Below, one piece after another: positions 22,562 to 30,475 of a stretch of 32,165 nucleotides of DNA. The DNA is taken from assembly GCF_002149035.1 (NCBI RefSeq), contig NZ_NGFP01000043.1:1-32165 (forward strand). Direction: 5' to 3'. Under the pieces are notes generated by a model, which had not been told where the DNA came from, did not search any database, and worked only from the letters and a program-made list of their open reading frames with translations. The position numbers and the translations under genes are program-made. Every line of letters starts with the position of its first letter. Positions within the stretch are counted from its first letter, which is position 1. The DNA comes from Streptosporangium minutum. Lineage in GTDB: Bacteria > Actinomycetota > Actinomycetes > Streptosporangiales > Streptosporangiaceae.

Positions 22562-23524
22562 TCATGGCGCCAGCAGCGACACGAAGCGGTCGAGGTCGAC
22601 GTTGCCGCCGCTGACGATCACACCGATCCGTCGGCCTCGCAGCCGGGGGGCGAGTTTGCGGACGGCGGCGAAACCGAGGCATCCGGTGGGCTCGACGACG
22701 ATCTTCATGACCGACCCGAAGATCCGCATGCATTCGACGAGTTCGGCGTCGGTGGCGGTGAGGATGTCGTCGACCTCGCGACGGATGATCTCGAACGTGT
22801 GGGCGCCGAGATGCTGGGTCTGCGCGCCGTCGGCGATGGTCTCAGGGGTGTCGATATGGACCACGGCCCCCTGGCGCAGGGACTGCTGGCCGTCGTTCCC
22901 GGCTTCGGGTTCGACGCCGTACAGCTCGCAGCCGGGCGAGAGCGACCGGGCCGACAGCGCCGTACCGGAGAGCAGCCCGCCGCCGCCGAGAGGCACGAAG
23001 ATCGCGTCGAGGTCGCCGACCTCGTCGAACAGCTCCTTGGCGGCGGTGCCCTGACCGGCGATCACATGAGGGTGGTCGTAGGGCGGGATCAGCGTGAGAC
23101 CGCGGTCGGCGGCCAGCGCACGGCCGATCTCCTCCCGGTCCTCGGTGTAGCGGTCGTAGGTGACGACCTGCCCCCCGTACCCCTTGGTGGCGGCCACCTT
23201 CGCGGCCGGCGCGTCGTGTGGCATGACGAGCGTGGCCGGGATCTCCAGCATCCGGGCGGCCAGGGCGATCGCCTGGGCGTGGTTGCCCGAGGAGTAGGCG
23301 ACCACGCCGGCACGCCGCTGCTCGGGGGTGAACCGCGACAGGGCGTTGAACGCGCCGCGGAACTTGAAGGCGCCCATGCGCTGGAAGTTCTCGCACTTGA
23401 ACACCACGTCGGCGCCGACCAGTTCGTTGATCCGGCGTGAGCGCAGCGCCGGGGTGCGGTGGGCGTGTGGCGCGATGAGGGCGGCGGCGCTCCGGACGTC
23501 GTCATAGGTCGGGGACAGGGACAC
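22562..23524 (-). CDS. PLP-dependent threonine/serine dehydratase family enzyme
   Basis: A 320-residue fold-type II PLP enzyme of the threonine ammonia-lyase / serine racemase group, without the C-terminal ACT domain of biosynthetic IlvA. K54 in GAFKFRGA is the Schiff-base lysine, SSGNHAQAIA holds the cofactor ring, and GGGGLLSG is the phosphate-binding glycine loop. The length fits catabolic threonine dehydratase or serine racemase. The start is GTG at 23524 with AAAGAGG four bases upstream; an ATG at 23575 would add a tail without homology. It lies between erm and cspA on the same strand but is separated from erm by a strong hairpin, so it has its own promoter. Confidence 0.9.
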   Translation of the reverse strand: MSLSPTYDDVRSAAALIAPHAHRTPALRSRRINELVGADVVFKCENFQRMGAFKFRGAFNALSRFTPEQRRAGVVAYSSGNHAQAIALAARMLEIPATLVMPHDAPAAKVAATKGYGGQVVTYDRYTEDREEIGRALAADRGLTLIPPYDHPHVIAGQGTAAKELFDEVGDLDAIFVPLGGGGLLSGTALSARSLSPGCELYGVEPEAGNDGQQSLRQGAVVHIDTPETIADGAQTQHLGAHTFEIIRREVDDILTATDAELVECMRIFGSVMKIVVEPTGCLGFAAVRKLAPRLRGRRIGVIVSGGNVDLDRFVSLLAP

Positions 23525-23622
23525 GGCGCCTCTTTCCGGGTGTCGGCGTAGGTGCGATGGGCCGGTTCTTCCCACCCGGACCGGTCCGAACCCGGTGGCG
23601 TCAGCGGTGCGACGGCGGAGCG

Positions 23623-23653
23623 GGCCGGGGACCGCGCGGCGCGGTCCCCGGCC
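23623..23653 (-). terminator. Terminator of the erm gene
   Basis: GGCCGGGGACCGC (23623-23635) and GCGGTCCCCGGCC (23641-23653) form a perfect 13-bp stem with a 5-nt loop, six nt past the erm stop. Confidence 0.75.
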
Positions 23654-23659
23654 GGGTGA

Positions 23660-24487
23660 TCATCCGGTGTGGTGGAGACGGTCGAAGAGGAGCGGCCACA
23701 GATCGGGGTGGACGTGCGCGACGACCGCGCCGCGGGCGACGCCCGCGGCGGCGAAGGCCGCGTCGACCTGGTCGGCCGGGTAGCGCAGCCGCATGGTCGC
23801 GTGCAGGGAGCCGCCCAGGCCGGTGAAGCCGTAGTCGACGAAGGCGCGGTAGCCTGGCAGATCGGGCGCCTGGGAGCGGCGTTCGATCCGCAGGATGGCC
23901 GAGTCGACCGCGGGGACGGGCCGGAACACCTCACGGCTGAGGTGGCCCAGCAGCTCCCAGCTGTACCAGGGCCAGGTCTGCACGGTCAGCATGCTCCACC
24001 GGCCGAAGTCGCCGGTGCGTTTGCGGGCGTACTCCAGCTGGGTGGTCAGGGTGGCCGAGGTGAGCTCGGGCGCCCGCAGGCACCAGTCGACGATCTTCGA
24101 GGTGATCGAGTAGGGGATGTTCCCGGCGACCGCGAACGGCTCGCGCGGCGCGCGGGCGGTCAGGAAGTCTCCCCGGACGACGCGGATGCGGGCGTCGTCC
24201 CGGGTGCGGGCGGCCAGCCTCCCCGCCAGCAGCGGATCGACCTCGTAGCCGACGACCTGGCCGCAGGTCTCGGCGAGCGCCCGGGTCAGGACGCCCTCTC
24301 CCGCGCCGGGCTCCAGCACCAGGTCGTGCGGGCCGACGGCCTCGACGATCCGGGCGACGGCGTCGGGGTCGACGACGAAGTTCTGCGACAGGGTGCGCCT
24401 GGCCTGGTCGCGGCCGGTTCTGCCACCGCCGCCGCGGGCTTTCTTCTGGGTGTGCGAGTAGTTTCCGTGAGCGAAGGACTGCGCCAC
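23660..24487 (-). CDS. erm: 23S rRNA adenine N6-methyltransferase, Erm (ErmE-like)
   Basis: A 275-residue SAM-dependent methylase expected to methylate A2058 of 23S rRNA and give macrolide-lincosamide-streptogramin B resistance. The N-terminal tail (MAQSFAHGNYSHTQKKARGG) is of the actinomycete type. SQNF at 34-37 (motif X), EPGAGEG at 59-65 (SAM site, motif I) and NIPY at 123-126 (motif IV) are intact. TQLEYARKRTGDFGRWSMLT closely resembles ErmE. The C-terminal part is about 30 residues longer than the minimal domain. GTG at 24487 follows AAAGGG by eight bases. This ribosome site can be trapped in a hairpin, and a leader peptide precedes the gene, so drug-induced expression is likely. No macrolide synthase is visible nearby. 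Confidence 0.93.
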   Translation of the reverse strand: MAQSFAHGNYSHTQKKARGGGGRTGRDQARRTLSQNFVVDPDAVARIVEAVGPHDLVLEPGAGEGVLTRALAETCGQVVGYEVDPLLAGRLAARTRDDARIRVVRGDFLTARAPREPFAVAGNIPYSITSKIVDWCLRAPELTSATLTTQLEYARKRTGDFGRWSMLTVQTWPWYSWELLGHLSREVFRPVPAVDSAILRIERRSQAPDLPGYRAFVDYGFTGLGGSLHATMRLRYPADQVDAAFAAAGVARGAVVAHVHPDLWPLLFDRLHHTG

Positions 24488-24494
24488 AGGTGTT

Positions 24495-24580
24495 GCCCTT
24501 TCGGGTCCGAGAGGAAGTGGTCTCGGAGGCCCAGGGCTCGCGCAGAGAGAGGCAGGAGCCTTCTCTACCGGCCCGAGGCC
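24495..24580 (-). promoter_or_regulatory. Attenuator-type RNA structures in front of erm
   Basis: Between leader and erm, TCTCGGA (24521-24527) pairs perfectly with TCCGAGA (24506-24512), 8-nt loop. The erm ribosome site (complement of GCCCTTT, 24495-24501) can pair with the segment at 24533-24537. That segment overlaps 24535-24539, which can instead pair with 24556-24560. The end of the leader frame (24573-24577) can compete for 24522-24526. These mutually exclusive stems are the hallmark of erm attenuators; the exact switch order is inferred. Confidence 0.6.
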
Positions 24581-24633
24581 GGGTTGTGGCGGAAGCGGAT
24601 GAAGAACTGGGGCGCGTGGCACGTGAACGACAT
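24565..24633 (-). CDS. Erm leader peptide, 22 residues, with Arg-Phe-Arg motif
   Basis: ATG at 24633 opens a 22-codon frame ending in TAG at 24565, 77 bp before the erm start. The peptide begins MSFTCHAPQ and contains FFIRFRHNP. The RFR triplet fits the +X+ pattern (basic-any-basic) at which macrolide-bound ribosomes stall in known leader peptides such as that of ermD. A -10-like TAGCCT ends seven bases before the ATG, with TTGTGC 18 bp further up, so the transcript probably starts at or next to the ATG (leaderless). Stalling here would rearrange the downstream stems and free the erm ribosome site. No other role is likely for so short a frame in this position. Confidence 0.72.
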   Translation of the reverse strand: MSFTCHAPQFFIRFRHNPASGR

Positions 24634-24640
24634 GCGGCTC

Positions 24641-24681
24641 AGGCTAGGGAGCCGCGCGCCGTGCGCACAAACGGTTTTACG
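24641..24681 (-). promoter_or_regulatory. Promoter of the erm leader
   Basis: Minus-strand -35 TTGTGC (24665-24670), 18-bp spacer, -10 TAGCCT (24641-24646). An AT-rich patch, minus-strand GTAAAACCGTTT, lies at and just upstream of the -35 box in otherwise GC-rich DNA. WhiB7-controlled promoters of actinobacterial resistance genes have such a patch; WhiB7 control is a guess here. Confidence 0.5.
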
Positions 24682-24994
24682 GCCGCCCGGCCGACAGCCG
24701 GCGGACCGGACATTCGGTCCGGCCGCCTGGCCGGTCCCCGCGATCCGGGCGTCTCTCCGGTCACCCATGTCGCAGGGCGCAGTCGTGTTTTGTGGCAGAC
24801 CTTGCGTGAAACGGCGGCCGGGCGGTGTGGCCGGTACGGTTTTTGTGGAGTTCCCACAACGAAGCAGCTCCGCCATGCACGATGGGGGACATTGGTGTAC
24901 CCGGCGGTAATCAAGCAGGGTGTAGACAGGTACAGGCGACGCTCCGGGTCCCGGGCGTCGCCTTCTGTGCGTGGGTAGTTGGGAGTCTCAGCTG
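24682..24994 (+). promoter_or_regulatory. Upstream region of the carboxylase gene
   Basis: About 310 bp without a gene. Seen: a 7-bp stem CGGACCG/CGGTCCG (24702-24708, 24715-24721); a dyad TTGTGG/CCACAA (24843-24848, 24854-24859); and an 8-bp stem GGCGACGC/GCGTCGCC (24935-24942, 24955-24962) that ends 18 nt before the ribosome site GGGAG of the carboxylase. The last probably lies in the leader RNA. No clear -35/-10 pair. Confidence 0.35.

Positions 24995-30475
<5,481 letters not shown>

Follow-up and report, generated by a model that had tools for sequence, protein, structure and literature searches.

How might an erm gene sense macrolides when the reading frame that encodes its putative sensor peptide has no Shine-Dalgarno (SD) sequence? 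The question is raised by a 32,165-nucleotide stretch of DNA (the window) from the soil actinomycete Streptosporangium minutum, in which a short frame with an Arg-Phe-Arg motif precedes an erm gene. An earlier note, made from the letters of the window, had read this frame as the leader of a competing-hairpin attenuator, probably on a leaderless mRNA. A close match among known systems is ErmDL, in which, according to passages of PMC8298421, macrolides or ketolides arrest translation at Arg-X-Arg with X in the P site, and arrest by erythromycin does not rely on the Arg-X-Arg motif alone.

Results

The erm gene, its leader frame and its promoter

The gene (23660..24487, minus strand) starts with GTG at 24487 and encodes 275 amino acids. 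Its product scored 331.4 bits against NCBIfam NF000337, the ErmE/ErmH/ErmO/ErmR family (cut-off 320), 235.5 bits against the broad Erm model NF000499 (cut-off 212) and 164.8 bits against Pfam RrnaAD, and reached 128.6 bits with the KsgA model, under the cut-off of 171. These profile scores identify it as a 23S rRNA adenine-2058 N6-methyltransferase of the Erm family. The closest named relative found is Streptosporangium canum (97% identity). An AAAGGG sequence (24501-24496, minus strand) is followed by 8 nt and then by the GTG. Fusion of biotin carboxylase, biotin carrier, ACC central and carboxyl transferase domains into one protein is unusual among bacteria; the divergent neighbor of erm (24971-30475, plus strand) encodes a single 1834-aa protein with these four domains.

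The leader ORF MSFTCHAPQFFIRFRHNPASGR has 22 codons (24565..24633, minus strand, stop included). Its codons CGC TTC CGC (24589..24597, minus strand) specify Arg-Phe-Arg, the predicted macrolide arrest motif by analogy with ErmDL. Upstream on the same strand are a -10 element, TAGCCT (24641..24646), 7 nt ahead of the ATG, and a -35 element, TTGTGC (24665..24670), with an 18-nt spacer between the two. An A/T box of the WhiB7/WblC type, TAAAAC (24674..24679), lies 3 nt upstream of the -35. The Erm-family gene, the 22-codon Arg-Phe-Arg leader and the -10-like box seven bases before its ATG, all claimed in the earlier note, are thus present in the window.

For WblC/WhiB7 of S. coelicolor, passages of PMC7157823 give the consensus GAAAWY, 3 bp, TKGMNN, a 16-19 spacer and TANNNT, and place the start sites of the regulon mostly 7 or 8 bp past the -10. 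The window promoter falls within this pattern, with five of six letters in TAAAAC, three of the four defined letters in TTGTGC, a spacer of 18 and TAGCCT. The pattern AAAWYNNNTTGN{20,22}TANNNTN7ATG occurs once in the organism's own 9.58 Mb genome, at the erm leader, and it has 13 occurrences across 16 genomes of the genus (9 of the 16 positive); read backwards, it has none. Six of the 13 sites are erm leaders, one precedes a decayed erm and six are elsewhere.

The decayed gene (L095) is in a same-genus genome (G015) with no full Erm match. There a WhiB7-type promoter heads a 123-codon ORF whose leader-like ATG runs into C-terminal Erm sequence, so that the erm has decayed with its promoter retained. 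At two further sites (L088 and L097, in same-genus genomes) the pattern heads a five-codon ORF of the leaderless type, MWINS, with more coding sequence not far downstream; this is possibly another leaderless sensor. At three others (L089, L098 and L099, also in same-genus genomes) it precedes a conserved protein of about 165 aa starting MTLFTHLSSADDIRSIRRAG, with the ORF intact in L098 and L099.

The organism's own genome carries a whiB7 gene (L085), recognized by a WhiB domain and an RGRPRK tail, and the region upstream of it contains AGAAAATATGTTGCTC and TTTAGGGT. A long region separates the WhiB7-type promoter from whiB7 and ends with a GC-rich inverted repeat and, after it, T-rich sequence, which fits the attenuation expected of whiB7.

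Conservation among related erm loci

We compared 73 loci: the window, 62 others (L017-L078) and 10 from the same genus (L007-L016). Three entries (L004-L006) were excluded because they are the same loci as L017, L018 and L023. A locus passed if an ATG ORF of 12-45 codons started 4-10 nt past TANNNT and at most 450 nt upstream of erm. This was found at 72 of the 73 loci, and all 72 leaders have a hydrophobic residue followed by R.R; the loci are related, and counts among them are not independent trials. Controls gave far fewer: the 744 flanking stretches held 7 such ORFs, of which 2 had the motif, and the 1460 mononucleotide shuffles held 65, of which 11 had it. The sole exception (L022) has the same kind of leader, with a -10 that reads TGGCCT. 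The Arg-X-Arg leader is therefore conserved among relatives (72/73 loci against 2/744 control stretches).

The motif is written with seven different Arg codon combinations, X being I, P, M, L, F or T, and the leader ends exactly 7 codons past it in 67 of the 73 loci. Outside the motif, nearest-neighbor differences at codon positions 1, 2 and 3 number 96, 86 and 100. This bias is weak, and so the rest of the peptide does not appear clearly protected at the protein level.

Conservation of the leader is not explained by a shared neighborhood, as both window neighbors of erm lie within 2 kb of it in only 1 of the 62 loci. For the same reason, promoter, leader and erm seem to travel as a single cassette.

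With the 73 upstream regions aligned from the leader ATG, an A/T block spans about -46 to -41, TTG lies at about -37 and TANNNT at -13 to -8. In 72 of the 73 loci the box has only A or T at its four core letters, and GAAAWY is matched in all six letters in 27 loci, five in 13, four in 21 and three in 12 (both in the best register per locus). Spacers between -35 and -10 are 17 nt in 33 loci, 18 in 38 and 19 in 2. The distance from the -10 to the ATG is 7 nt in 60 loci, 6 in 6 and 8 in 6, with C at -1 in 99% of the 73, and an SD-like 4-mer precedes the ATG in only 4 of them. Because the promoter resembles the WblC/WhiB7 consensus, for which start sites lie 7-8 bp past the -10, the mRNA probably begins at the first base of the leader ATG (24633 in the window). 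The leaderless start proposed earlier is in this way upheld as probable by the 6-8 nt spacing in 72 of 73 loci, the scarcity of SD-like 4-mers and the start-site spacing of the WblC regulon. The resemblance also suggests that the promoter depends on WhiB7.

Leaders of more distant actinomycete erm genes

A class-level search found Erm matches in 53 of 394 genomes, at 54 places. The wider set comprises the upstream DNA of 40 of these, leaving out 11 with at least 67% identity, which belong to the window's clade, and three that scored low; one of the 40 (L101) had already been counted in the first set, as L074. The test was stricter here: an A/T box, T[TGC]G, a spacer of 16-19, TANNNT, and an ORF of 8-50 codons starting 6-10 nt on. 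A leader of this kind was found at 31 of the 40 loci and at none of the 40 reverse-strand controls. All 31 contain R/K.R/K, a count that weighs less than in the 73 loci because the motif turns up by chance more readily in long, Arg-rich ORFs. Spacing was 7 nt in 25 leaders, 9 in 3, 6 in 2 and 10 in 1, and the leaders, for example MTASMRLRTA, MSVFALIRMRRF and VAANNAIIITGLGRGYAHSVRMRRGPGALTGPGSHAR, span four numbered family groups (f1, f4, f18 and f37).

Nine of the 40 loci were negative in the strict test. Four of them (L127, L133, L137 and L139) have an R-X-R leader 7-8 nt past TANNNT without the strict box, and in the upstream DNA of the other five (L112, L113, L117, L122 and L129) no R-X-R leader was found. 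One contig of genome G122 carries two erm-like genes (L101 and L131), each with its own leaderless-type R-X-R leader, and the two leader sequences differ.

A plasmid collection yielded 43 matching records, of which we inspected nine for a leader and a -10-like box. An R-X-R leader starts 6-7 nt past such a box in the records of erm(36), erm(55), erm(50), erm(51) and erm(X) and in those from Kocuria, Nocardioides and Nonomuraea gerenzanensis, eight in all. The erm(X) and Nocardioides values, 7 nt each, were deduced from the distance to a second start codon that lies 3 nt further on. The ninth, erm(46) (L140), has no R-X-R ORF within 320 nt upstream; its only match lies 631 nt upstream, where another gene is located.

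Predicted RNA structure between leader and erm

The window RNA from the leader ATG to erm codon 10 is predicted to fold with -71.6 kcal/mol (z -3.43), a value that none of 200 dinucleotide shuffles equaled. Consensus folding with RNAalifold of four clades of 12, 11, 20 and 16 sequences (59 of the 73 loci) returned one architecture in all four, made of helices P3, P1 and P2 and an SD hairpin, with an identical P3 register. In consensus P3, the erm start region is joined to leader bases about 4-15 nt from the first Arg codon, and the partners of the GTG are leader bases 9-11; the strands in the window are GCCACA (24585..24590) and TGTGGC (24483..24488), which includes the erm GTG. P1 pairs the last leader codons with GCCC-N-GGGCC, here GGCCTCGGGC (24571..24580) with GCCCTGGGCC (24528..24537), the latter termed element B. 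The P2 hairpin (24506..24527) is formed by TCCGAGA (24527-24521) and TCTCGGA (24512-24506), and the SD hairpin CCC-GAAA-GGG (24496..24505) includes AAAGGG. All are on the minus strand.

The most stable conserved helix is P1, whose pairs form in 93.9% of cells (73 rows) against 41-73% when the strands are slid. P2 outer pairs form in 84.5% of cells, with 23 double-change cells, which none of 2000 shuffles reached. P3 pairs form in 89.6% of cells against 20-65% when slid, and its covariation does not exceed that of shuffles (862 of 2000 reach its pairing; 73 rows), so this helix rests on the consensus folds and on synonymous-leader controls. In 66 of the 73 loci the leader codons form a better pairing with the erm start than the median synonymous variant does, with 19 below the 5% tail; the fraction for the window is 0.27. 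At the leader end, the first Ala codon is GCT in 50 of the 62 loci with Ala there, whereas GCT makes up 29 of the 1736 Ala codons of the erm genes themselves. GCT being so frequent, this suggests an RNA-level constraint on the leader end.

In single-sequence folds, at least 4 of the 9 start-region bases are paired with the leader in 53 of the 73 loci; counting only pairs with the part of the leader that a stalled ribosome would cover, the number is 40. In the minimum-energy fold of the window, the GGG of AAAGGG belongs to the 3-bp CCC-GAAA-GGG hairpin, and the erm start codon joins leader codons 6-9 (CACGCGCCCCAG, 24607..24618, minus strand), not 15-17, in a long-range helix. The models thus predict that the SD and start of erm are held in RNA structure. 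Of the stem said in the earlier note to trap AAAGGG, the existence of stems is retained; the partners differ, since this fold leaves the GGG in a short local hairpin and puts the start codon in the long-range helix. An Rfam search of 23600-25000 gave no match up to E = 1.

Modeled effect of a stalled ribosome

According to pairing probabilities, stalling would open the erm start region in 40 of the 73 loci and close it in 2. For the 6-nt SD the result is equivocal (13 open, 16 close), and we counted it against a plain SD trap; the mean unpaired probability of the GGG is 0.026 in the free and 0.115 in the stalled RNA. Competing hairpins had been proposed for this region. Stems with the leader 3' end and with the SD region are indeed conserved, but stalling does not clearly free AAAGGG, and in the models the case for freeing the erm start region is stronger than that for freeing the SD.

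We then scanned a ribosome over codons -6 to +8 around X, with a footprint that reaches from 14 nt before to 15 nt past the first P-site base, as in the analysis of pairing probabilities, and computed the cost of clearing the erm initiation region. On average this cost falls by 2.6-3.0 kcal/mol at offsets -3 to 0, and by 2.81 kcal/mol with X itself in the P site; it falls by 0.6-0.8 kcal/mol at offsets -6 to -4 and shows no drop at +1 to +8 (-0.9 to 0). The best position is X in 23 of the 73 loci and lies between -3 and 0 in 59. Random synonymous recoding of the leader abolishes the effect (-0.01 at X, n=146, vs 2.81), and the native leader exceeds its own recoded versions in 61 of the 73. Other footprints (25 loci) give a drop at X of 2.6-3.2, with the exception of 0.86 when 17 nt are covered downstream; the point at which the effect ends moves by about one codon with the footprint assumed. 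In the window the drop is 1.9 at X and largest, 4.0, at offset -3.

Discussion

The sequence elements, their conservation and their spacing are established, and the folds are predicted. Taken together, they make it fairly probable in our judgment that this erm gene is inducible through two inputs in series: a leaderless leader driven by WhiB7, and macrolide arrest within it that frees the erm start. The transcript start, the WhiB7 dependence, the drug arrest and the switching are what we infer. As the first input, ribosome stress would induce WhiB7, which would activate the promoter of the leader-erm transcript. The transcript would begin at the leader ATG, and the leader would for that reason be translated without an SD. 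As the second, a macrolide-bound ribosome in the leader would arrest at Arg-Phe-Arg with Phe in the P site.

In P3 of the resting RNA, the erm start region would be bound to the codons at and just past the arrest site. This helix would close a multibranch fold with P1 (leader end and element B), P2 and the small SD hairpin inside it. An arrested ribosome would cover the leader strand of P3, and because of this the start codon would be easier to open. It would stop short of most of P1, which would keep element B off the SD. A ribosome moving on would open P1, and element B could then pair with the GGGC of the SD, so that the benefit would be lost. An arrest leader under a WhiB7-type promoter would amount to an AND-like arrangement.

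The stability of P1 also invites a different account, in which this hairpin stops RNA polymerase unless a ribosome stalled on the leader prevents it, as in whiB7/wblC and several ABCF genes. No other conserved helix is as stable as P1, and high-GC bacteria can use terminators without a U tract. With the T-run model, however, no terminator-like site was found in 23500-25000; judging from the coordinates, most of P1 would lie outside the footprint of a ribosome stalled at Arg-X-Arg; and the erm SD and start codon are predicted to be in helices, which termination would not need. Such control is published for related resistance genes in the accounts cited below, and, no terminator having been found, we keep transcription attenuation as a rival that we regard as unlikely.

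Similarly improbable, we think, is that the leader is translated without acting as a macrolide arrest peptide, WhiB7 alone inducing the gene while leader traffic tunes basal erm translation. Sections of the published work report WhiB7/WblC control of lrm, erm(37), erm(38) and erm(41), and the peptide is little constrained outside Arg-X-Arg. Yet the motif is present in 72 of 72 clade leaders adjacent to a -10 and in 31 of 31 strict leaders of the wider set, and in the models X is the last codon at which a parked ribosome helps. That the transcript starts further upstream, the leader belonging to a longer or SD-led ORF, is very doubtful: the frame is open upstream in the window, where a 103-codon ORF from the ATG at 24876 includes the leader and the 101 upstream codons examined have no in-frame stop, but such a stop occurs in the stretch examined at 53 of the 73 loci (within 30 codons at 29), few loci (4/73) have SD-like 4-mers and the -10 lies 6-8 nt from the ATG in 72 of 73.

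The preferred reading, a WhiB7-driven leaderless leader with macrolide arrest, has much in common with known systems. Already known are erm arrest leaders, actinobacterial ones included, the erm(X) leader, WhiB7 control of some erm genes, uORF attenuation and leaderless ermE. As in ErmDL-ermD of Bacillus (the Arg-Leu-Arg class), a short leader with Arg-X-Arg precedes erm; unlike there, the leader has no SD, follows a WhiB7-type promoter and has codons predicted to pair with the erm start. Bacillus erm leaders are SD-led. The earlier note had set this leader apart from the best-studied Firmicute erm leaders: its leaderless character is probable, but in actinomycetes this looks more like the usual arrangement than like a peculiarity of one locus. 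That note had mentioned neither a WhiB7-type promoter nor the occurrence of such leaders in other actinomycetes.

The erm(X) leader MLISGTAFLRLRSNR is already annotated ahead of its gene, passages of PMC3350403 mention it as a possible attenuator and, from the derived spacing, it resembles the present leader in starting 7 nt past a -10-like box. For plasmid-borne actinobacterial erm leaders, erm(X) included, the portions of the published accounts consulted make no mention of leaderless translation. The promoter elements and spacing are like those of the WblC/WhiB7 regulon, in which, according to PMC7157823, WblC activates lrm, an Erm(O)-type gene of S. coelicolor; the relevant passages of that account do not mention an arrest leader. 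As described in parts of PMC12421871 and PMC10727445, whiB7/wblC and the actinomycete ABCF genes lmrC, tiaA and are5sc have uORF attenuators. The likeness is a ribosome stalled on a short upstream ORF that alters RNA structure, as predicted here; the difference is that those act through transcription termination, whereas here no terminator was found and the start codon is predicted to be paired. A leaderless ermE mRNA (Bibb 1994, cited in passages of PMC9031893) is likewise an erm transcript translated without a conventional ribosome-binding site, with the distinction that there the site is missing from the methyltransferase gene, while here it is missing from the frame of the sensor peptide and erm is preceded by an SD.

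A term search of the main text of a survey of uORFs upstream of erm (PMC11264731) did not return 'leaderless', 'WhiB' or 'Streptomyces'. Our literature search, which covered the older erm literature incompletely so that an earlier report is possible, found no description of a leaderless WhiB7-type arrest leader ahead of erm. The leaderless WhiB7-type arrangement of an erm arrest leader is thus apparently new, in that we did not find it in print.

Leaderless messages can start on whole 70S ribosomes, and for this reason the drug-bound ribosome may itself be the initiating particle. We tentatively extend the proposal, with less than even confidence, to Actinomycetes at large: macrolide-sensing erm leaders would as a rule be leaderless and WhiB7-driven, perhaps with a drug-bound ribosome initiating, and erm would need both the WhiB7 alarm and Arg-X-Arg arrest on codons that pair with its start. 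The arrangement follows a simple sequence rule, and searches that expect an SD before short ORFs could miss such leaders. It would unite WhiB7 activation of intrinsic resistance with drug-dependent arrest in erm leaders, which the literature consulted treats separately. If true, macrolide sensing by erm genes takes place on leaderless transcripts in many actinomycetes, and a neglected question becomes testable, namely how a drug-bound ribosome starts and then stalls on an mRNA without a ribosome-binding site.
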